Source of the DNA: Bacillota bacterium | GTDB taxonomy: Bacteria > Bacillota > Clostridia > SK-Y3 | NCBI GenBank assembly: GCA_022360955.1 | Contig: JAKSBV010000282.1 | Location: 1-64,000 of the forward strand | Length of the DNA stretch: 64,000 bases | Direction of reading: 5' to 3' | In this document: piece after piece, positions 6,561 through 55,695 of the stretch | How positions within the stretch are numbered: position 1 is the first letter of the stretch | Layout of the letters: every line of letters starts with the position of its first letter | Position numbers and translations under genes: made by a program | The notes under the pieces: generated by a model | The model's database searches: none | What the model was told of the DNA's origin: nothing | What the model saw: the letters and a program-made list of their open reading frames with translations, nothing else

Positions 6561-6885
6561 TAAAAAACCTTCATCCCCATAGGGACGAAGGCATATTTTC
6601 CGTGGTACCACCCTGATTTTTGAGTACAACAATAAAGCGTTCTACTCAAACACTTAACATCAGATAACGGTTATGACCGGTATTGCCTACTAATCGTCAA
6701 CCTCAAAGAGATGGAGCGGTTTCAAATATTTCTCCCCACTCCCGGCTCCCCACGCCTCACTATTTCAACAATACAACTCCGGAGCGAACTTCGGTTGCAC
6801 TTTTTCCAAAAGTGCTTTCAGCCGGCGGCACTTTCTCTCTGAGGACCAGTTACAACCTACTCTTCTCTTTCATCGTCTTTATCAT
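6561..6885 (-). promoter_or_regulatory. T-box riboswitch, Phe-type, controlling pheST
   Basis: On the minus strand the canonical T-box AGGGTGGTACCACGG lies at 6600-6614, followed by a terminator hairpin (6568-6591, CCTTCGTCCC/GGGGATGAAGG) and a T6 run at 6561-6567. Upstream, Stem I carries the AGAGAAGAGTAGG element near 6857. A candidate specifier UUC (Phe) is at 6786-6788 in GAAGTTCGC. Uncharged tRNA-Phe would pair with the specifier and T-box bulge and favour antitermination. A G-rich intergenic repeat (about 6733-6762) is embedded between Stem I and the antiterminator. Confidence 0.93.
6568..6591 (-). terminator. T-box terminator hairpin of pheST leader
   Basis: A stem of CCTTCGTCCC with GGGGATGAAGG and a short loop, followed on the minus strand by TTTTTTA. 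It overlaps the T-box so that antiterminator and terminator are mutually exclusive. Confidence 0.9.
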
Positions 6886-22725: not shown

Positions 22726-22802
22726 TGGTCTGAGTGGGGAGACTTGAACTCCCGGCCTCTTGAACCCCATTCAAGCACGCTACCAAACTGCGCCACACCC
22801 AG
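22726..22802 (-). tRNA. tRNA-Pro (anticodon GGG)
   Basis: A 77-nt cloverleaf on the minus strand: acceptor CTGGGTG/CACTCAG with one G-U, D arm GCGCAGTTTGGTAGCGT, anticodon arm CTTGA-ATGGGGT-TCAAG with anticodon GGG, T arm CGGGAGTTCAAGTCTCCC, discriminator A and an encoded CCA (22726-22728). Confidence 0.95.
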
Positions 22803-22918: not shown

Positions 22919-24397
22919 TTAAAGTATAATACAAATCAAACCTCCGCTACCTTCGTTAATAATTTTTTGAAGAGTCTCCTGCAGTCTAATCTGCGCATCT
23001 TCGGGCATTCTGTATAATTTATTGTGAAGCCCTTCATTTACCAATTCATGAAGCGATTTGCCAAAAATATTGGACTCCCAAATCTTCACAGGGTCTGTTT
23101 CAAATTCATTCAGCAGATAATTAACCAAATCTTCACTTTGTTTTTCTGTCCCAACGAGAGGAGACACCTCTGTTTCAATATCTGCTCTAATCATATGAAT
23201 CGAAGGGGCACTCGCTTTCAATCTTACACCGAACCGGTTGCCCTGTTTGACAATTTCCGGCTCTTCAAGCTGTAATTCGTCCATCGTAGGAGAAACAATA
23301 CCGTACCCCTTTTGTTGTACCTCGTGCAGTGCAAACTGTATTTTATCGTACGCTTTTTTGATAGAACCTAATTCTTGCATGAGGGTAATCAATTTGTCTT
23401 CACCATCAATATCGAATCCGGAAGTCTCACCGAGTACTTTATAGAATAGGCTTTCCGGTGTAGTTACATCTATTAATACGGTACCTTCTCCCAGGTCAAT
23501 TTTATCAAAATATACTTTTTCAATGAAATCATATTCATTGATTTTTCCTGCTGCACCTTTCGCCTCCCGGATCTTATAGACGTTTTTAAGAGATTCTTTG
23601 ACCGAATCCATAATATCTTTTCTCAACCAATGGTCGGAGTCTAAGGTTTCCAACCAGGTCGGCACATTGATGCCTATCTCTTTTAATGGGAATTCGAATA
23701 AAACTTTTTCCATAATCCCGTTAATATCATCTATTTGCAATTGTGCGCAATTGACCGGCATTACGGGTACGCCATATTTTTCTTCCAACTCTTCTTTTAG
23801 CTTCTGCGTTTCAGCATCAAAAGGATGGGTTGAGTTCAGAAGCATCACAAACGGCTTATTTATTTCCTGTAATTCTTTAACAACCCTTGTTTCCGCTTCA
23901 ATATATTCTTCCCTCGGAATTTCCGTTATACTGCCGTCGGTAGTAATCACCAGACCAATTGTAGAATGCTCCGTAATTACTTTTCTTGTACCGATTTCCG
24001 CAGCTTGTTGAAAAGGGATGTCTTTATCAAACCATGGTGTATTTACCATTCTTGGGATATTATTTTCTATGTGTCCCAACGCTCCGTCTACAATATAACC
24101 TACACAATCTATCATCCGCACATTAAACGTTGCATTATCATCTAATACAATGCCGACCGCTTCATTTGGTACAAATTTGGGTTCTGTTGTCATAATTGTT
24201 CTGCCGCCGGCGCTTTGAGGCAACTCGTCACGTGCCCTTTCTTTTCGATGGACATTTTCAATATTCGGTAAAACCAAAAGATCCATAAACTTTTTGATAA
24301 AGGTGGACTTTCCTGTCCTTACAGGGCCGACAACGCCTATATATATATCCCCTTCCGTCCGTTCAGCTATATCCTGATATATGTTGTAATCGTCCAA
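22919..24397 (-). CDS. spoIVA: Stage IV sporulation protein A, coat morphogenetic ATPase
   Basis: A 492-residue protein of normal length. The Walker A motif GPVRTGKST is at residues 24-32 and the conserved tail GGLICIIL closes the protein. SpoIVA binds the outer forespore membrane through SpoVM and polymerises with ATP hydrolysis into the coat basement layer. Start is TTG with AAAGGGGGC upstream. Monocistronic by its terminator; in Bacillus it is sigma-E-dependent, but I could not assign a sigma-E promoter here. spoVM is at 49281-49352. Confidence 0.97.
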   Translation of the reverse strand: MDDYNIYQDIAERTEGDIYIGVVGPVRTGKSTFIKKFMDLLVLPNIENVHRKERARDELPQSAGGRTIMTTEPKFVPNEAVGIVLDDNATFNVRMIDCVGYIVDGALGHIENNIPRMVNTPWFDKDIPFQQAAEIGTRKVITEHSTIGLVITTDGSITEIPREEYIEAETRVVKELQEINKPFVMLLNSTHPFDAETQKLKEELEEKYGVPVMPVNCAQLQIDDINGIMEKVLFEFPLKEIGINVPTWLETLDSDHWLRKDIMDSVKESLKNVYKIREAKGAAGKINEYDFIEKVYFDKIDLGEGTVLIDVTTPESLFYKVLGETSGFDIDGEDKLITLMQELGSIKKAYDKIQFALHEVQQKGYGIVSPTMDELQLEEPEIVKQGNRFGVRLKASAPSIHMIRADIETEVSPLVGTEKQSEDLVNYLLNEFETDPVKIWESNIFGKSLHELVNEGLHNKLYRMPEDAQIRLQETLQKIINEGSGGLICIIL

Positions 24398-24460
24398 TTT
24401 CGATGCCCCCTTTTAAAATAATACTTTAAAATTTTGGTAGTGGAGTTATTCATTTGCACT

Positions 24461-48946: not shown

Positions 48947-49135
48947 ATGGCACAGTGTGATGTTTGTAACAAAGGCGTCAGCTTCGGAATAAAGGTAAGC
49001 CATTCTAACAGAAGATCAAATAGAACTTGGAGACCGAATGTTAGAAAAGTAAAAGCTATTGTAAACGGTACACCGAAAAAAATCAACGTATGTACGCGTT
49101 GTCTGCGTTCCAATAAGGTAACCAGAGCAATATAG
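48947..49135 (+). CDS. rpmB: 50S ribosomal protein L28, zinc-binding form
   Basis: A 62-residue protein starting MAQCDVCNKG, with RRSNRTWRPNVRKV and a second CTRC pair, the four-Cys form of L28. ATG at 48947 with AGGAGGT upstream. The only plus-strand gene in this region, followed by its own terminator. Confidence 0.97.
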   Translation: MAQCDVCNKGVSFGIKVSHSNRRSNRTWRPNVRKVKAIVNGTPKKINVCTRCLRSNKVTRAI

Positions 49136-49140
49136 CAAAA

Positions 49141-49178
49141 AAAGATTCAAAAATCTGTGCATTTTTGAATCTTTTTTT
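49141..49178 (+). terminator. rpmB terminator
   Basis: AAAGATTCAAAAAT with ATTTTTGAATCTTT, loop CTGTGC, then a T run. The A run on the left lets it also end the minus-strand spoVM transcript. Confidence 0.92.
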
Positions 49179-49280
49179 ATTGCCTATCCTATGGTTCAAC
49201 CCTTTTTCTCTCAATGTATGTATTCTTTGCAATTCAATCCATTGTTTGATATAAAATAATAGTGCATTCAACATCACAGG

Positions 49281-49352
49281 TTAATGCATCCTGAATACGG
49301 TTCTAAGTATTTTTCCAATGAATTTCGGCATTTTTAGCACCACAATCTTCAT
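49281..49352 (-). CDS. spoVM: SpoVM, spore coat anchor peptide (23 aa)
   Basis: A 23-residue amphipathic peptide beginning MKIVVLKMPKF, with Pro at position 9 and a basic C-terminal half (GKILRTVFR), matching the pattern of the 26-residue B. subtilis SpoVM. It recognises the convex forespore membrane and anchors SpoIVA. GAGGTG lies five bases before the ATG. Its place between thiN and rpmB is exactly that of B. subtilis spoVM. Too short for normal gene callers. Confidence 0.9.
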   Translation of the reverse strand: MKIVVLKMPKFIGKILRTVFRMH

Positions 49353-49365
49353 AATCACACCTCAC

Positions 49366-49515
49366 TTATCCTTTCCTCAGCAAAAGCCACCCTATTACAA
49401 TCAGGAGCAAACCTTCCAATCCGACCAGGAACCCAGTAGGTATAATCCATGCAAATACGATGCCCGCTCCTATTGCTCCTATCAAAAGACCCGTAACCTT
49501 ACGTCTGCCGGCCAT
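49366..49515 (-). CDS. 49-aa small membrane protein upstream of spoVM
   Basis: Starts MAGRRKVTGLLIGAIGAGIV, has two hydrophobic stretches (about 9-25 and 28-46) and ends RKG. TAGGAGGTGA is ten bases before the ATG. Its stop is 13 bases from spoVM, so the two are co-transcribed. I recall similar small membrane proteins before spoVM in Clostridia, but no function. Confidence 0.8.
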   Translation of the reverse strand: MAGRRKVTGLLIGAIGAGIVFAWIIPTGFLVGLEGLLLIVIGWLLLRKG

Positions 49516-49665
49516 AATAAAAGGTTCACCTCCTATGCCGCCCCATTCTACTATTAGTATATTCAGCCAACCTATTTTGGTGACAAATTAGTTCGGAGTT
49601 TGGAACGAAAGCAAATACGCTAAAGATTAAGCTGCCCTTCGTCATGTACATTGTCTAATCGGAGA

Positions 49666-50301
49666 CTAGTCCCTTGCTTTTATTACCAGCAATAATCCTT
49701 GCTTAATGCTAATCTCCGCCTCTGTACGGGTCAATACATTGCTTATCCCATAGGGAAGGCCAAAGGTCATTTGTGCATCTTGCAAGGCATATTGAAGGCC
49801 TGTGGTCGTAATGCCGTCCACACATTCGGATACGGGAAGCAGTGAAAGGATATCGCCTGCTTTCCCTTTGATACGGATGCGATGATTGATTAAGTAAATT
49901 TCGTTGTGTTCATTTAAAATCATCCCATTGATGCCATGGTCTAATATTAATTTCAATAAAGAAATATTGGCAAAAGAATGGTCAAATCGGCTGCCCAAGC
50001 TGCCAATAAGTACAATTTCCTTACACCCTTTTCCGATCGCATATTCAACTGCAAGCTGGGTGTCGGTCTGGTCTTTCCCGGCAGGATATTGCAGCCGTTT
50101 TGTATGCTTCGATTGCATAGCATTGAGATTGCACTGTTCGATTGAATCCATATCGCCTATGAGAATATGAGGGATTATCCCCATTTTTTCAGCATGCATC
50201 GCACCGCCATCGGCACAAATGATCAAATCGGACGGTGAGAAAAGATTTGTATAAAAATTGTAGTCTGTGATACTTCCGTTTGAAATAATCCAGGCTTTCA
50301 T
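49666..50301 (-). CDS. thiN: Thiamine pyrophosphokinase
   Basis: A 211-residue enzyme making thiamine diphosphate from thiamine and ATP. Motifs: LIICADGGAMHAEKMG, HILIGDMDSIE, YPAGKDQTDTQLAVEYA and GSLGSRFDHSFANI. Same position as thiN (yloS) in B. subtilis, between rpe and spoVM. Confidence 0.95.
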   Translation of the reverse strand: MKAWIISNGSITDYNFYTNLFSPSDLIICADGGAMHAEKMGIIPHILIGDMDSIEQCNLNAMQSKHTKRLQYPAGKDQTDTQLAVEYAIGKGCKEIVLIGSLGSRFDHSFANISLLKLILDHGINGMILNEHNEIYLINHRIRIKGKAGDILSLLPVSECVDGITTTGLQYALQDAQMTFGLPYGISNVLTRTEAEISIKQGLLLVIKARD

Positions 50302-50324: not shown

Positions 50325-50386
50325 GTCAAGGGGACGGTTCCGGTGACACGCTTGATCAAGCGCGTCACCGGAGCCGTCCCCCTGAC
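50325..50386. repeat. 62-bp REP-like palindrome between rpe and thiN
   Basis: Near-perfect 31-bp arms: GTCAAGGGGACGGTTCCGG at one end and CCGGAGCCGTCCCCCTGAC at the other, centred on CTTGATCAAG. GGGGACGGTTC palindromes are a widespread interspersed repeat in Clostridia. It begins two bases after the rpe stop, inside the operon. Confidence 0.9.
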
Positions 50387-50387
50387 A

Positions 50388-51038
50388 CTATACTGATTTC
50401 TTCAACTTCGTAATCATCCCCGCCACATCGTCGGATTTATAAATGGCCGAACCGGCTACGATAACATTAGCACCGGCTTGTGTCACTTCATCTATGTTAT
50501 CTGCGCCGATACCTCCGTCAATCTCGATATCAATACTTTTATCCAGCCTGTCCAGCTTTTGCTTCAGCGAAGCTATCTTTTCGGTCATAGCCGGAATATA
50601 CTGCTGTCCGCCAAAGCCCGGATTAACCGTCATCAATAAAACCATGTCAACATCGTTCAAAACATAGTCCAGGGTATGTAATGGCGTCGCAGGATTTAAG
50701 GCCGCACACGCTTTGAGTCCCAAATCTTTAATCATCCGGAGACACCTTTGAAGATGCCGGGTCGCTTCCACATGCACGGTAATGATATCAGCCCCTGCTT
50801 GCGCAAAATTTTCAATGTATTTCTCCGGATTTTCGATCATCAGATGTACGTCAAAGGGCAGATTGCAATGCTTTTTAATACTTTCAACAACCACAGGCCC
50901 GATCGTAATATTCGGCACAAAATGCCCGTCCATTACATCTATATGAAGCAGATCGGCGCCTCCCTGTTCAACTAATCTAATTTGCTCCGCAAGCCTTGAA
51001 AAATCAGCCGCAAGAATAGATGGTGCTATTTTTATCAT
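50388..51038 (-). CDS. rpe: Ribulose-phosphate 3-epimerase
   Basis: A 216-residue TIM-barrel enzyme interconverting ribulose-5-phosphate and xylulose-5-phosphate. Signatures: HIDVMDGHFVPNITIGP, LMTVNPGFGGQQYIP and DGGIGADN. ATG at 51038 overlaps the rsgA stop (ATGA) and has AAGGAG eight bases upstream; the GTG at 51047 is too close to it. Confidence 0.97.
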   Translation of the reverse strand: MIKIAPSILAADFSRLAEQIRLVEQGGADLLHIDVMDGHFVPNITIGPVVVESIKKHCNLPFDVHLMIENPEKYIENFAQAGADIITVHVEATRHLQRCLRMIKDLGLKACAALNPATPLHTLDYVLNDVDMVLLMTVNPGFGGQQYIPAMTEKIASLKQKLDRLDKSIDIEIDGGIGADNIDEVTQAGANVIVAGSAIYKSDDVAGMITKLKKSV

Positions 51039-51919
51039 CGCTGCCACTCCTTTATGTCTTTTAGTTGGTTATAGAACTGGAGATAATTGTTGTATCTGGA
51101 GGCGGAAATTTTATTCTTATCCAGTGCTTCTAATACACTGCAACCGGGTTCCGAAGTATGGGCACAGCCCCTGAATCTACACAGGGGGATATGCTCCGTA
51201 AATTCTTTAAAAAGATACTGCAGCTCTTCCTTCCGAATATTCGTCAAATCCATAGAACTAAAGCCGGGCGTATCGACTACATAGCTTCCATCTTTTAATG
51301 CCAGAAGCTCAACATGTCTGGTGGTATGCCTGCCCCGTTTAATTTTTTGGCTTATTTCTCCTGTCTGCAGCGAAAATCTGGGATCAACGGCATTTAACAA
51401 ACTTGATTTTCCTACACCGGATGCCCCTGCAAACACCGTTATTTTTCCTTCCAGCATATTACGCAGCTCATTAATGCCGGCTCCCGTAACGGAACTGGTG
51501 CCCACAATGCCGTACCCCGAACCGGCATATATATTGAACAGGTCAACGTAGGCTTTGCTCTCATCCAAATCAATTTTATTAAAACATAGAATAATATCCA
51601 GCTTCTGATTCTCTGCGGCCACCAAGAATTTATCCACCAATACCAGATTTGGATTTGGTGAAGTAACGGATACGACAATGACGGCCTGATCCACGTTCGA
51701 AACAGGCGGACGAATGAGCTGTGTTCTTCTGGGATCTATGTGCTCTATACTGCCCTTTGTGGCGTCATGGGCAGCGATTGAAATATCCACCCGATCACCG
51801 ACCATCGGAATCATATCTCGCTTTCTAAACTTTCCTCTTGCCTTGCACTCAATAACACCCTCACTCGTTTTGACATAGTAAAATCCACCGATTCCTTTCA
51901 ATATGATCCCTTTCGGCAT
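51035..51919 (-). CDS. rsgA: Ribosome small subunit GTPase RsgA
   Basis: A 294-residue circularly permuted GTPase acting in 30S maturation: OB fold (1-70), G4 NKID, G1 GASGVGKSS, G3 DTPGF, then a C-terminal zinc site with CRFRGCAHTSEPGC. ATG overlaps the prkC stop by one base (TAATG), indicating coupling. Confidence 0.97.
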   Translation of the reverse strand: MPKGIILKGIGGFYYVKTSEGVIECKARGKFRKRDMIPMVGDRVDISIAAHDATKGSIEHIDPRRTQLIRPPVSNVDQAVIVVSVTSPNPNLVLVDKFLVAAENQKLDIILCFNKIDLDESKAYVDLFNIYAGSGYGIVGTSSVTGAGINELRNMLEGKITVFAGASGVGKSSLLNAVDPRFSLQTGEISQKIKRGRHTTRHVELLALKDGSYVVDTPGFSSMDLTNIRKEELQYLFKEFTEHIPLCRFRGCAHTSEPGCSVLEALDKNKISASRYNNYLQFYNQLKDIKEWQR

Positions 51920-53838
51920 TATTCAACACCGCCGAACTCAAGCGTGTCTTCATACACCGGCGTATCGCTATCGTCAAAATACAGCTGAACAGGCACGTTG
52001 CCCTTACCCGACATCTCAATCTCAAGCGGACTCTCCTCTTTTTGATGCACTTTTTCATAAACCACCTTTTTCCCTGAGCCGTCATCTGCAACAATCTTCA
52101 CTTTTACCTGTTCTTTATCCTGCGGAAGGTGAATTGAAATCGTCTGTGTCCTGCTTTCGTCGGCCTTTCCCTCACTGACCACCAGATCTACTTTCGTCTT
52201 TTCCTCCACTTCCTGACCGTCAGCGACGCTCTGCTCGATCACTTCATTCTTAGGCCGGTCACTGGGTCTGCTTTCGACTTCACCGGGTACCAATCCGAGC
52301 TGCTGAATGATTTGTTTGGCCTCCTCCGCCGTCTTGCCTGTCAAATCCTGCATTGTTACCATTGTAATTTTCGGCCCGGTACTGACATATAATTGAACGA
52401 ATTCTCCTTTTTTTACTTCTACCTGTGATTCCGGCACATGCCGAATAACACAGCCTTCCGGCACCCTGTCATGGGAGTCATATCTAACGTCAGGCTTCAG
52501 GCCCTTTGCTTCCAATTCAATCTCCGCTTCCCTATACTCCCAATTTTTTAATAGCGGAACCTTTACCATTTCCGCCCCCATGCTTACCGTCACTTCAATG
52601 TCGCTAGGTATCACGACCATCTTGTCCGCACCAGGTTCCTGGGAAACAATTTGTCCCTTTTCATGTTCATCATCATAAACCTGTTTGAACTCAACAATAT
52701 TGAATCCTTGCTCGCTGTATGCAGTCTTAACACTCTCCAGATCCTTTCCCAAAAGATTCGGAACAGGAGCTTCCTTCGGCGCCCTCTTTGCAGCATAATC
52801 CTTATAAACATGATAACTTGCATAAGAGATGCCGCCAATAATGATAAAAGACGTTATAATAGCTGCAATGACCGCAATCCTATCTTCCTTTTTCACCTTC
52901 TTTTTTCTGCCTGCTTTCTTTTTAACCATAATCTCACTTCCGTCGTCAATATTATTTATGATCGGGATCTTTTGTGTCGGCGAATCATCAATATTTTCCG
53001 TTTCCACAAAATCTTCATCGGGTGTCTTAAAAGCTTTATAGATATCTCCCAGCATTTCTCCCGCCGATGCATATCGATTGCCCTGTTCTTTGCTGATTGC
53101 TTTTAAGATGATGGATTGTATGACGCCGGGTACATCCGTATTAATATCTCCCGGTGGTATAGGGAGCTCTTGAATATGCTTCATAGCAATTGCCACAGGG
53201 CTTTCCCCGTCAAAAGGCACTTTGCCCGTAATCATCTCATACATTACGATGCCCAAAGAATAAATATCCGATCTTTCATCGGTATACCCGCCTCTGGCTT
53301 GTTCGGGAGAAAAATAATGCACCGAGCCTATCGTGTTTCCGCCCAAATTAACCGTTGATGAAGACACTGCTCTGGCAATACCAAAATCAGTCACTTTTGC
53401 GCGTTTATCCTCAGTAATCATAATATTATGAGGTTTGATATCCCTGTGTATCACACGGTTTTTATGGGCATGTTCCAAGGCGGAACAAATCTGCATGGCA
53501 ACATTCAAGGCATCCTTCCAAAACAAAGGACCGTTTCCGGTGATTATTTCTTTCAGTGTACTGCCGTTAATGTATTCCATGACAATATAATATATGCCGT
53601 GCTGATGACCCACATCATATACGGAAACAATATTGGGATGTGACAAGCTTGCCGCTGCTTGTGCTTCAACATTAAATCGGCCTACAAATTCCTCATCCTC
53701 TATCAATTCACTTCGCAAAATCTTCACAGCAACAAAACGGTTCAGAAGTCTGCATTTTGCCTTATAAACTAAGGCCATTCCACCTCCGCCGATTTTTTCT
53801 ATTATTTCATATCTATTCCCCAATAACTCTCCAATCAT
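51919..53838 (-). CDS. prkC: PASTA-domain Ser/Thr protein kinase PrkC
   Basis: A 639-residue membrane kinase. Cytoplasmic kinase domain: Gly loop GGGGMA (17-22), catalytic Lys39, HRDIKPHN (131-138), DFG (151-153). One membrane segment follows at about 321-345, then three PASTA repeats (about 357-425, 426-495, 496-565) and a C-terminal beta-rich tail. It senses muropeptides or lipid II and phosphorylates growth and germination targets. ATG at 53838 with GAGAGGTGA upstream. Confidence 0.96.
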   Translation of the reverse strand: MIGELLGNRYEIIEKIGGGGMALVYKAKCRLLNRFVAVKILRSELIEDEEFVGRFNVEAQAAASLSHPNIVSVYDVGHQHGIYYIVMEYINGSTLKEIITGNGPLFWKDALNVAMQICSALEHAHKNRVIHRDIKPHNIMITEDKRAKVTDFGIARAVSSSTVNLGGNTIGSVHYFSPEQARGGYTDERSDIYSLGIVMYEMITGKVPFDGESPVAIAMKHIQELPIPPGDINTDVPGVIQSIILKAISKEQGNRYASAGEMLGDIYKAFKTPDEDFVETENIDDSPTQKIPIINNIDDGSEIMVKKKAGRKKKVKKEDRIAVIAAIITSFIIIGGISYASYHVYKDYAAKRAPKEAPVPNLLGKDLESVKTAYSEQGFNIVEFKQVYDDEHEKGQIVSQEPGADKMVVIPSDIEVTVSMGAEMVKVPLLKNWEYREAEIELEAKGLKPDVRYDSHDRVPEGCVIRHVPESQVEVKKGEFVQLYVSTGPKITMVTMQDLTGKTAEEAKQIIQQLGLVPGEVESRPSDRPKNEVIEQSVADGQEVEEKTKVDLVVSEGKADESRTQTISIHLPQDKEQVKVKIVADDGSGKKVVYEKVHQKEESPLEIEMSGKGNVPVQLYFDDSDTPVYEDTLEFGGVE

Positions 53839-53903
53839 TTTTTCACCTCTCCCGGTGTTTTTTAACATATCTTTACTCTCCCATACTTTTTGCCGGCCCT
53901 ATT

Positions 53904-54641
53904 CTAAATCTTTACGGCCACAACAGTGATATTGTCCAAGCCGCCTTTGTCATTTGCAAGCCGGACCAGCTTTTCAACAGTAATTTGAAGATCATCCCAT
54001 TTCTTCATCTCCGACAGTATTTCCGTATCCCTTACCATATTGGTCAGCCCATCGGTACAGATCAATATGATATCCCCGGTCTCAAGCTGCTGAACATAAA
54101 TATCAACCTGCGTATCCTGTTCTCCTCCCAGCGCACGCGTAATAACATTCTTTTGAGGATGATGCTCTGCTTCTTCACGGGTAATGCTGCCGCTGTTGAC
54201 CAGTTCTGCAACAATAGAATGATCGACGGTAATCTGATGCATACCGTTATCTCTTATTAGATATACCCTGCTGTCTCCCACATGGGCAATATACATGGAG
54301 CTGTTATGCAACAAACAAAATATGGCTGTTGTTCCCATCCCCGCTTGGGTTTTATTCTGAAGAGACTGCCAATAAATACTCCTGTTGGCCTTTTGCATCA
54401 TTTCTTTCAATATCGCAATGATCTGAGACTTCTCCATGTCTTCCGAATATCTTTCCTGAATATGGTTTTTCATTTTTTCAATAGCTATTTTGCTTGCCAC
54501 TTCTCCCGCATTGTGGCCTCCCATGCCGTCGGCAATAATACAATATCCATTTCCGGATTCCAGGTTAAAATCCGATATGAAAAAATTGTCTTCATTGATT
54601 TTTCTTGTTTTCCCCCTATCGGTAAAAGCGCCTATTTTCAT
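53904..54641 (-). CDS. prpC: PP2C-family Ser/Thr phosphatase PrpC
   Basis: A 245-residue PPM phosphatase opposing PrkC. Metal and catalytic motifs: RKINEDNFF (13-21), ADGMGGHNAGEVA (37-49), AHVGDSRVYL, CTDGLTNMV and DNITVVAV. ATG at 54641 with AAGGGGGAC upstream. Between rlmN and prkC as in B. subtilis. Confidence 0.97.
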   Translation of the reverse strand: MKIGAFTDRGKTRKINEDNFFISDFNLESGNGYCIIADGMGGHNAGEVASKIAIEKMKNHIQERYSEDMEKSQIIAILKEMMQKANRSIYWQSLQNKTQAGMGTTAIFCLLHNSSMYIAHVGDSRVYLIRDNGMHQITVDHSIVAELVNSGSITREEAEHHPQKNVITRALGGEQDTQVDIYVQQLETGDIILICTDGLTNMVRDTEILSEMKKWDDLQITVEKLVRLANDKGGLDNITVVAVKI

Positions 54642-54654
54642 ACCTTTGTCCCCC

Positions 54655-55695
54655 TTAAAGTGATTGTCTCGAATAACCCCTCCTAAGTTGTCCGCATGAA
54701 GCATTTATATCACCACCAAGCTCGCGTCTTATCGTTGTCGAGATCCCCGCTCTTTCTATCTGTATTTTAAACCTGTGTATTTTATCCGTCTCACTTTTAA
54801 CATAACCTCTTTCCCCAATCTCGTTAACAGGAATAAGGTTTACATGACATAGCAGATGTTTAATTTTACTGCTCAATTCCCGTGCATTTTCTACGGTATC
54901 GTTAACACCCGATATCATTGCATATTCAAATGTTATTCTCCTTTTTGTCCTTTCAATATATACTTTACAGGCTTCTATCACTTTATCGAGCGGGAATAAT
55001 TGATTTACAGGCATGATTTTATTTCTAATTTCATCATTAGGGGCATGTAGTGAAACAGAAAGGGTAATAGGCATATTTTCTTCGGCCAGGGTTAACATTT
55101 GGGGCACCAATCCGCTGGTTGATAAGGAAATATGTCTATATCCGATCTTGAGTCCTGCCGGATGATTGACATTTTTTAAAAATGTCAGGACATGATCATA
55201 ATTATCCAGCGGCTCACCGATCCCCATTAAAACAATATTTGAAATCCTCTCCTGCAAATCCCTTTGCACAAATAGAACCTGGTCCAATATCTCTGCCGGG
55301 GTCAGATGCCTTACCAGTCCCCCTATGGTCGATGCACAAAACCTGCACCCCATTCTGCACCCCACCTGGGTGGAAATGCACAGGGTAATGCCATGTTTAT
55401 ACCTCATGGCAACACTTTCAATAAGGTGTCCGTCATCCAATGCCAACAAATATTTGACTGTACCGTCTAACTTAGACACATACTTTTCCGCAATCTCAGG
55501 ACAACTGATAAAGCATTTTTCTTGTAATATATCTCGCAAATCTTTTGACAAATTCGTCATCTCGTCAAAATCCGTAATACCACGTTGAAGCCATTCAAAT
55601 ACCTGCTTGGCCCTATACTTTTTTTGACTCAATTGTAAAATGAATTGTTCCAATTCTTCAAAGGTTAAATCTTTTAAATTTATTCGTTCTATCAA
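54655..55695 (-). CDS. rlmN: 23S rRNA (A2503-C2)/tRNA (A37-C2) methyltransferase RlmN
   Basis: A 346-residue radical-SAM methyltransferase. The cluster motif CRMGCRFC gives Cys at about 113, 117 and 120; LMGIGEPLDNYD, SLSTSGLVP and the C-terminal RRELGGDINASCGQLR (catalytic Cys) are present. TTG at 55695 is eight bases after AAAGGAG; the longer reading spans the ribosome site. Confidence 0.96.
   Translation of the reverse strand: MIERINLKDLTFEELEQFILQLSQKKYRAKQVFEWLQRGITDFDEMTNLSKDLRDILQEKCFISCPEIAEKYVSKLDGTVKYLLALDDGHLIESVAMRYKHGITLCISTQVGCRMGCRFCASTIGGLVRHLTPAEILDQVLFVQRDLQERISNIVLMGIGEPLDNYDHVLTFLKNVNHPAGLKIGYRHISLSTSGLVPQMLTLAEENMPITLSVSLHAPNDEIRNKIMPVNQLFPLDKVIEACKVYIERTKRRITFEYAMISGVNDTVENARELSSKIKHLLCHVNLIPVNEIGERGYVKSETDKIHRFKIQIERAGISTTIRRELGGDINASCGQLRRGYSRQSL

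Follow-up and report, generated by a model that had tools for sequence, protein, structure and literature searches.

The window, by which we mean the whole stretch of 64,000 nucleotides that was analysed, carries two short genes on the reverse strand between thiN and rpmB (Table 1). The first, here called p49, encodes a 49-aa membrane protein (MAGRRKVTGLLIGAIGAGIVFAWIIPTGFLVGLEGLLLIVIGWLLLRKG) and the second, 13 nt further on, a 23-aa SpoVM (MKIVVLKMPKFIGKILRTVFRMH), both being located 3' of thiN. An earlier note on this DNA had proposed two short genes with good ribosome sites at these positions, and inspection of the sequence and its open reading frames upheld that proposal. The note had also read the locus as having the gene order of B. 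subtilis. Using family models we found the order prpC-prkC-rsgA-rpe-thiN-(p49)-spoVM/rpmB-asp23-fakA-recG, which agrees with that reading, except that rpmB lies on the opposite strand and is convergent with spoVM, the gap between the two containing a perfect hairpin bordered by T/A runs, which forms an intrinsic terminator for both strands. The further idea that p49 would complete the B. subtilis order had to be abandoned, since B. subtilis-type loci have no p49 between thiN and spoVM. Elsewhere in the window, we noted a near-perfect palindrome in the gap between thiN and rpe (positions 50330-50381, GGGGACGGTTCCGGTGACACGC..., fold z=-9.8), with the related sequence GGGGACGGTTC-N3-TGAC occurring in 11 copies in the genome, several of them as inverted pairs, as well as a T-box leader at 6578-6882 (-) and a tRNA gene at 22729-22802 (-).

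Table 1. Genes and signals at the p49-spoVM locus, with neighbouring genes and spoIVA, in the numbering of the window.
Feature	Position	Strand	Basis or description
p49	49366..49515	-	49-aa membrane protein with basic N-terminus; predicted helical hairpin (helices 3-24 and 28-48, turn at Pro26)
spoVM	49281..49352	-	23 aa, clostridial type (K2, L6, P9, I15)
Ribosome-binding site of p49, AGGAGGTG	49527..49534	-	Sequence; same in relatives
Ribosome-binding site of spoVM, GAGGTG	49358..49363	-	Sequence
Promoter-like motif TCAC-N16-AATATACT, 5' of p49	49556..49583	-	Conserved; putative mother-cell sigma type
Bidirectional intrinsic terminator, convergent spoVM/rpmB gap	49137..49180	.	Fold of -16 and -18 kcal/mol on the two strands
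rpmB (ribosomal protein L28), convergent neighbour	48947..49135	+	Family models
thiN (thiamine diphosphokinase), upstream neighbour	49666..50301	-	Family model
rpe	50388..51047	-	Family model
rsgA	51035..51919	-	Family model
prkC (PASTA Ser/Thr kinase)	51919..53868	-	Family model
prpC (PP2C phosphatase)	53904..54704	-	Family model
spoIVA (known SpoVM partner)	22922..24403	-	Same window, ~25 kb from the pair

Binding to SpoIVA and a location on the convex forespore membrane are hallmarks of known SpoVM, and together these two proteins constitute a model, worked out in Bacillus, for the building of a coat on a curved membrane. The SpoVM of the window aligned end to end with the NCBIfam profile SpoVM_broad (profile positions 1-21 of 26, E=1.3e-5). 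It is a basic peptide within the 22-29 aa range that aligns over its whole length with known SpoVM, and it adjoins rpmB and thiN as expected of a SpoVM locus. The score of 25 bits is lower than the curated NCBIfam cut-off of 31 bits, which only 16 of 300 genomes of the phylum pass; because clostridial SpoVMs usually fall below this cut-off, the low score weighs neither for nor against the assignment. The earlier note had described a SpoVM that keeps Pro9 and is shorter than the 26-aa Bacillus form. The proline is indeed present, as in 113 of 134 unique SpoVMs, but the length is no oddity, 23 aa being the commonest in the class (60 of the 134 unique sequences). Compared with B. subtilis SpoVM (26 aa; NF033436), the peptide is likewise short, basic and amphipathic, with K2, P9 and I15 retained and a gene beside rpmB, and it differs in its length, in its score relative to the cut-off and in having p49 as a companion.

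Members of the p49 family have 43-60 aa and a common plan, consisting of a basic N-terminus, a helix, a short neutral turn, a second helix and a slightly basic C-terminus, with mean net charges of +2.9 at the N-terminus, 0 in the turn and +0.9 at the C-terminus. Proline was found in the turn of 91 of 94 members. For p49 itself, AlphaFold2 gave the hairpin described in Table 1 with moderate confidence (pLDDT 70.5, pTM 0.35), and the positive-inside rule predicts a cytoplasmic location for the two ends. Profile searches of Pfam, NCBIfam, PHROGs and the PDB gave no family covering p49, and Foldseek gave no match against the PDB. The weak Pfam matches of single members (TauE, YphA, CyanoTRADDas_TM and others) were scattered and not shared, and were set aside as generic two-helix similarity. 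One scan of viral contigs and a first scan of genome contigs using p49 as query yielded no matches, and a second genome-contig scan, seeded with an alignment of the family (A3), returned three named loci. Since identity among distant members is low, their homology leans on gene position.

Within the family of the window, which includes Petroclostridium sp. X23 (G004, matched through locus L202), p49 and spoVM occur together in genomes G001-G005, and also in the order relative G006. Differences at codon positions 1, 2 and 3 amounted to 0.31, 0.17 and 0.58 for p49 and to 0.11, 0.06 and 0.49 for spoVM, and both frames are therefore under purifying selection, with pairwise dN/dS, among pairs with estimable dS, of roughly 0.2-0.3 for p49 and in most cases no more than about 0.1 for spoVM. 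These analyses confirmed p49 and spoVM as real, conserved coding genes. By the terms of the earlier note, its proposal would fail if neither frame were conserved among relatives; the opposite was clearly found, with both frames conserved and p49 linked to spoVM within the class as well as outside it.

That tie was evident from profile searches of Clostridia genomes, in which a p49 profile (A1) gave matches in 92 of 291 genomes and a SpoVM profile (A2), run separately, in 157, with 149 of these among the matches listed. In 72 of the 92 p49-positive genomes, SpoVM was found 14-118 nt 3' of p49 on the same strand. Upstream of the remaining SpoVM genes we counted some 24 diverged hydrophobic hairpins of 47-63 aa, and including these forms about 96 of the 149 SpoVM genomes carry p49. 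Of 134 unique SpoVM loci analysed for their neighbours, 94 had p49 upstream, 65 had rpmB within 1 kb and 31 had thiN, where the count for p49 is biased upward because the loci were partly picked via p49. Starts of control genes gave a positive result in the same two-helix small-ORF test at 23 of 381 positions, as against the 94 of 134 SpoVM loci. Four picks of the two-helix filter (L142, L190, L151 and L176) were dropped by eye. In family f54 (L151, L163 and L177), the gene located 86-114 nt before spoVM encodes an 87-aa hydrophobic protein, which was excluded as a different protein; it takes the place of p49 there and looks GlsB/YeaQ-like by eye.

The pair is also kept where its usual surroundings are gone. 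At 45 of the 94 pair loci none of rpmB, thiN, rpe and rsgA was in reach, and the neighbours were varied and unrelated. Because the pair survives a change of its whole surroundings, this persistence is good evidence, at the level of gene order, for a functional linkage of p49 and spoVM. Using a broader profile (A4), we found that p49 also precedes SpoVM in other classes of the phylum, and that there is no p49 upstream at seven loci with SpoVM of the Bacillus/Paenibacillus type (MKFYT[IF]KLP[KR]FLGG...). The spoIVA gene was present in 66 of the 72 pair genomes, compared with 217 of all 291 genomes (Fisher P=7e-5, in a test that ignores phylogeny). At two further loci, both at the site between thiN and rpmB (L228 and L243), the frame that comes after p49 resembles SpoVM but is very diverged (PK[VI][FY]Y...PxFIKKFLSS), and is possibly a decaying or diverged SpoVM.

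With regard to expression, the motif [CA]ATA[CT]A[CT]T was present upstream of p49 in 29 of 93 regions, as compared with 4.6 in dinucleotide shuffles, and a T[CA]AC element was found 16 nt before it when the regions were aligned on the motif. A Bacillus-type sigma-E -35/-10 pair showed no enrichment in the same regions (0 of 93, against 0.65 in shuffles). We read the motif as a promoter for a mother-cell sigma factor, of either the E or the K type, which are inseparable by sequence because only the -10 and the T[CA]AC element are enriched. Genome-wide, the combined pattern was modestly above control, with 10 against 6 occurrences in G000 and 18 against 7 in G004, and the region upstream of spoIVA had no clear shared promoter within the family. 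In three family genomes (L298, L299 and L308), the same motif, as TCAC-N16-CATATACT, precedes an ORF for a Met/Pro-rich, coat-like protein (MEDK.KY.PEKPE...), of which the two copies scanned, L299 and L308, gave no Pfam match. The view of the earlier note that p49 and spoVM are co-transcribed gained support from their 13-nt spacing, the conserved promoter-like motif, the terminator after spoVM and the published CD25622-spoVM transcript of C. difficile (PMC5607322).

In that organism, Ribis et al. (2017) found spoVM, near rpmB, to share a sigma-E-dependent transcript with the gene preceding it, CD25622, whose 50-aa product has no known function and which they called unique to the Peptostreptococcaceae (PMC5607322). 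By our searches, such a restriction does not hold for the p49-type gene, which is widespread. A 50-aa homologue located upstream of SpoVM in genome G286 (L129) matched the p49 profile (E=7e-4), and on the basis of this match together with position and length CD25622 probably belongs to the p49 family. Both CD25622 and p49 encode about 50 aa and immediately precede spoVM in the same orientation; sigma-E dependence was measured for the CD25622-spoVM transcript, and p49 has a promoter-like motif that may be of this type. We found no other paper than PMC5607322 under the locus name CD25622.

The mutants described in that paper bear on whether p49 might be a passenger, i.e. a conserved but dispensable small membrane gene with negligible effect upon sporulation. 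Insertions in CD25622 and in spoVM gave near-identical mild defects, with heat resistance lowered 3-5-fold, and 3-4-fold for the CD25622 mutant, and about one-third of the mutant cells having detached coat, uneven cortex or abnormal shape, and the authors concluded that CD25622 had little impact (PMC5607322), which would suit a passenger. The CD25622 insertions were, however, likely polar on spoVM (PMC5607322), and a passenger would hardly be expected to stay with spoVM across several classes after all other synteny was lost, so that we consider this explanation highly improbable. In strain JIR8094, defects were seen in 42% of CD25622-VM cells and in 32% of VM cells (PMC5607322), a difference that is suggestive only.

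Each gene of the pair was also found apart from the other. Family f22 has p49 in 8 of 14 genomes, and no SpoVM-like frame was seen 3' of p49 in any f22 locus read; p49 stands alone there, in two cases (L011 and L012) between thiN and rpmB. The f22 p49 loci lacking a recognisable SpoVM were L011, L012, L087, L093, L107, L108, L124 and L132. A genome-wide search for SpoVM in all 14 genomes, several of which are incomplete, yielded no convincing candidate (best E=0.03, spanning 12 residues), with spoIVA present in 13 of them. SpoVM was likewise not found in some clostridial genera by Galperin et al. (2012) (PMC3533761). Conversely, p49 is missing from some lineages with spoVM, namely families f8, f13, f26 and f16 and also the Bacilli, and SpoVM can therefore work without p49.

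Since p49 is retained in some lineages where SpoVM cannot be recognised, it is probably also active apart from SpoVM, provided that no diverged SpoVM is hidden in f22. Taken further, p49 could have a spore-envelope function of its own, such as in the outer forespore membrane or the cortex, to which SpoVM makes no contribution, with the operon only timing its expression. The f22 genomes, having p49 and spoIVA but a recognisable SpoVM in none of the 14, speak for such independence, although a very short diverged SpoVM could have been missed in these partly incomplete genomes, and the adjacency kept through rearrangements in most lineages favours a joint role; we regard full independence as rather unlikely.

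The f22 genomes also bear on the notion that p49 is chiefly a cis-acting leader ORF, setting or coupling the translation of spoVM, with a protein product of little weight. The closeness of the genes (median gap 21 nt) and the low level of the C. difficile spoVM transcript, 50-100-fold below that of spoIVA (PMC5607322), would suit a leader. The range of the gap, from -4 to 105 nt, fits strict coupling poorly, though, and purifying selection on the protein, the conserved two-helix pattern with its turn proline and the persistence of p49 in f22 all argue for a product that matters, making a leader function very unlikely.

The reading that we favour is that p49 and spoVM form a two-gene sporulation operon, in which p49 rather likely serves as a membrane hairpin, made by the mother cell, that acts on the outer forespore membrane together with SpoVM or next to it. 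The spore-envelope role for which the earlier note had put p49 forward, exerted with or beside SpoVM, is to our judgement somewhat more probable than its absence. A mother-cell sigma factor, sigma-E as for CD25622-spoVM of C. difficile, would direct synthesis of p49 and SpoVM in the mother cell, where p49 would enter the membrane as a hairpin whose two ends lie in the mother-cell cytosol. Placed beside SpoVM on the outer forespore membrane with its ends facing SpoIVA, it would provide the SpoIVA basement platform with a second small membrane element and might stabilise or position SpoVM and SpoIVA, or SipL, or the membrane at that site. That p49 is a true second component of this platform is a tentative suggestion.

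Among other small or lineage-restricted proteins of this pathway, CmpA, which works with SpoVM, is known only from the Bacillales and is not known to be encoded with spoVM. Its likeness to p49 lies in being a very small sporulation protein tied to the SpoVM pathway (PMC5607322). SipL, in turn, is a Clostridia-side component that partners SpoIVA and is absent from Bacilli (PMC5607322), but is a LysM-domain protein and not a small membrane hairpin like p49.

New in this analysis are the breadth of the p49 family, the continued association of p49 with SpoVM where synteny has been lost, the lack of p49 at Bacilli loci and, in one family, the occurrence of p49 where no SpoVM can be recognised. The p49-spoVM pair also provides a landmark for very short, diverged SpoVM genes missed by standard searches, a shortcoming that Galperin et al. 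(2012) had pointed out (PMC3533761). Judging from its distribution, p49 is probably a contributor to spore formation in anaerobes that has been overlooked. SpoVM is nearly dispensable in C. difficile, and p49, a conserved membrane protein encoded together with SpoVM in most SpoVM-bearing clostridial lineages and absent from family databases, would be a direct candidate for the missing part. As a speculative extension, p49 could be an unrecognised second membrane component of the basement layer in Clostridia and related classes, an ancestral partner of SpoVM missing from the Bacilli, whose presence may partly explain why SpoVM is essential in B. subtilis and largely dispensable in C. difficile.
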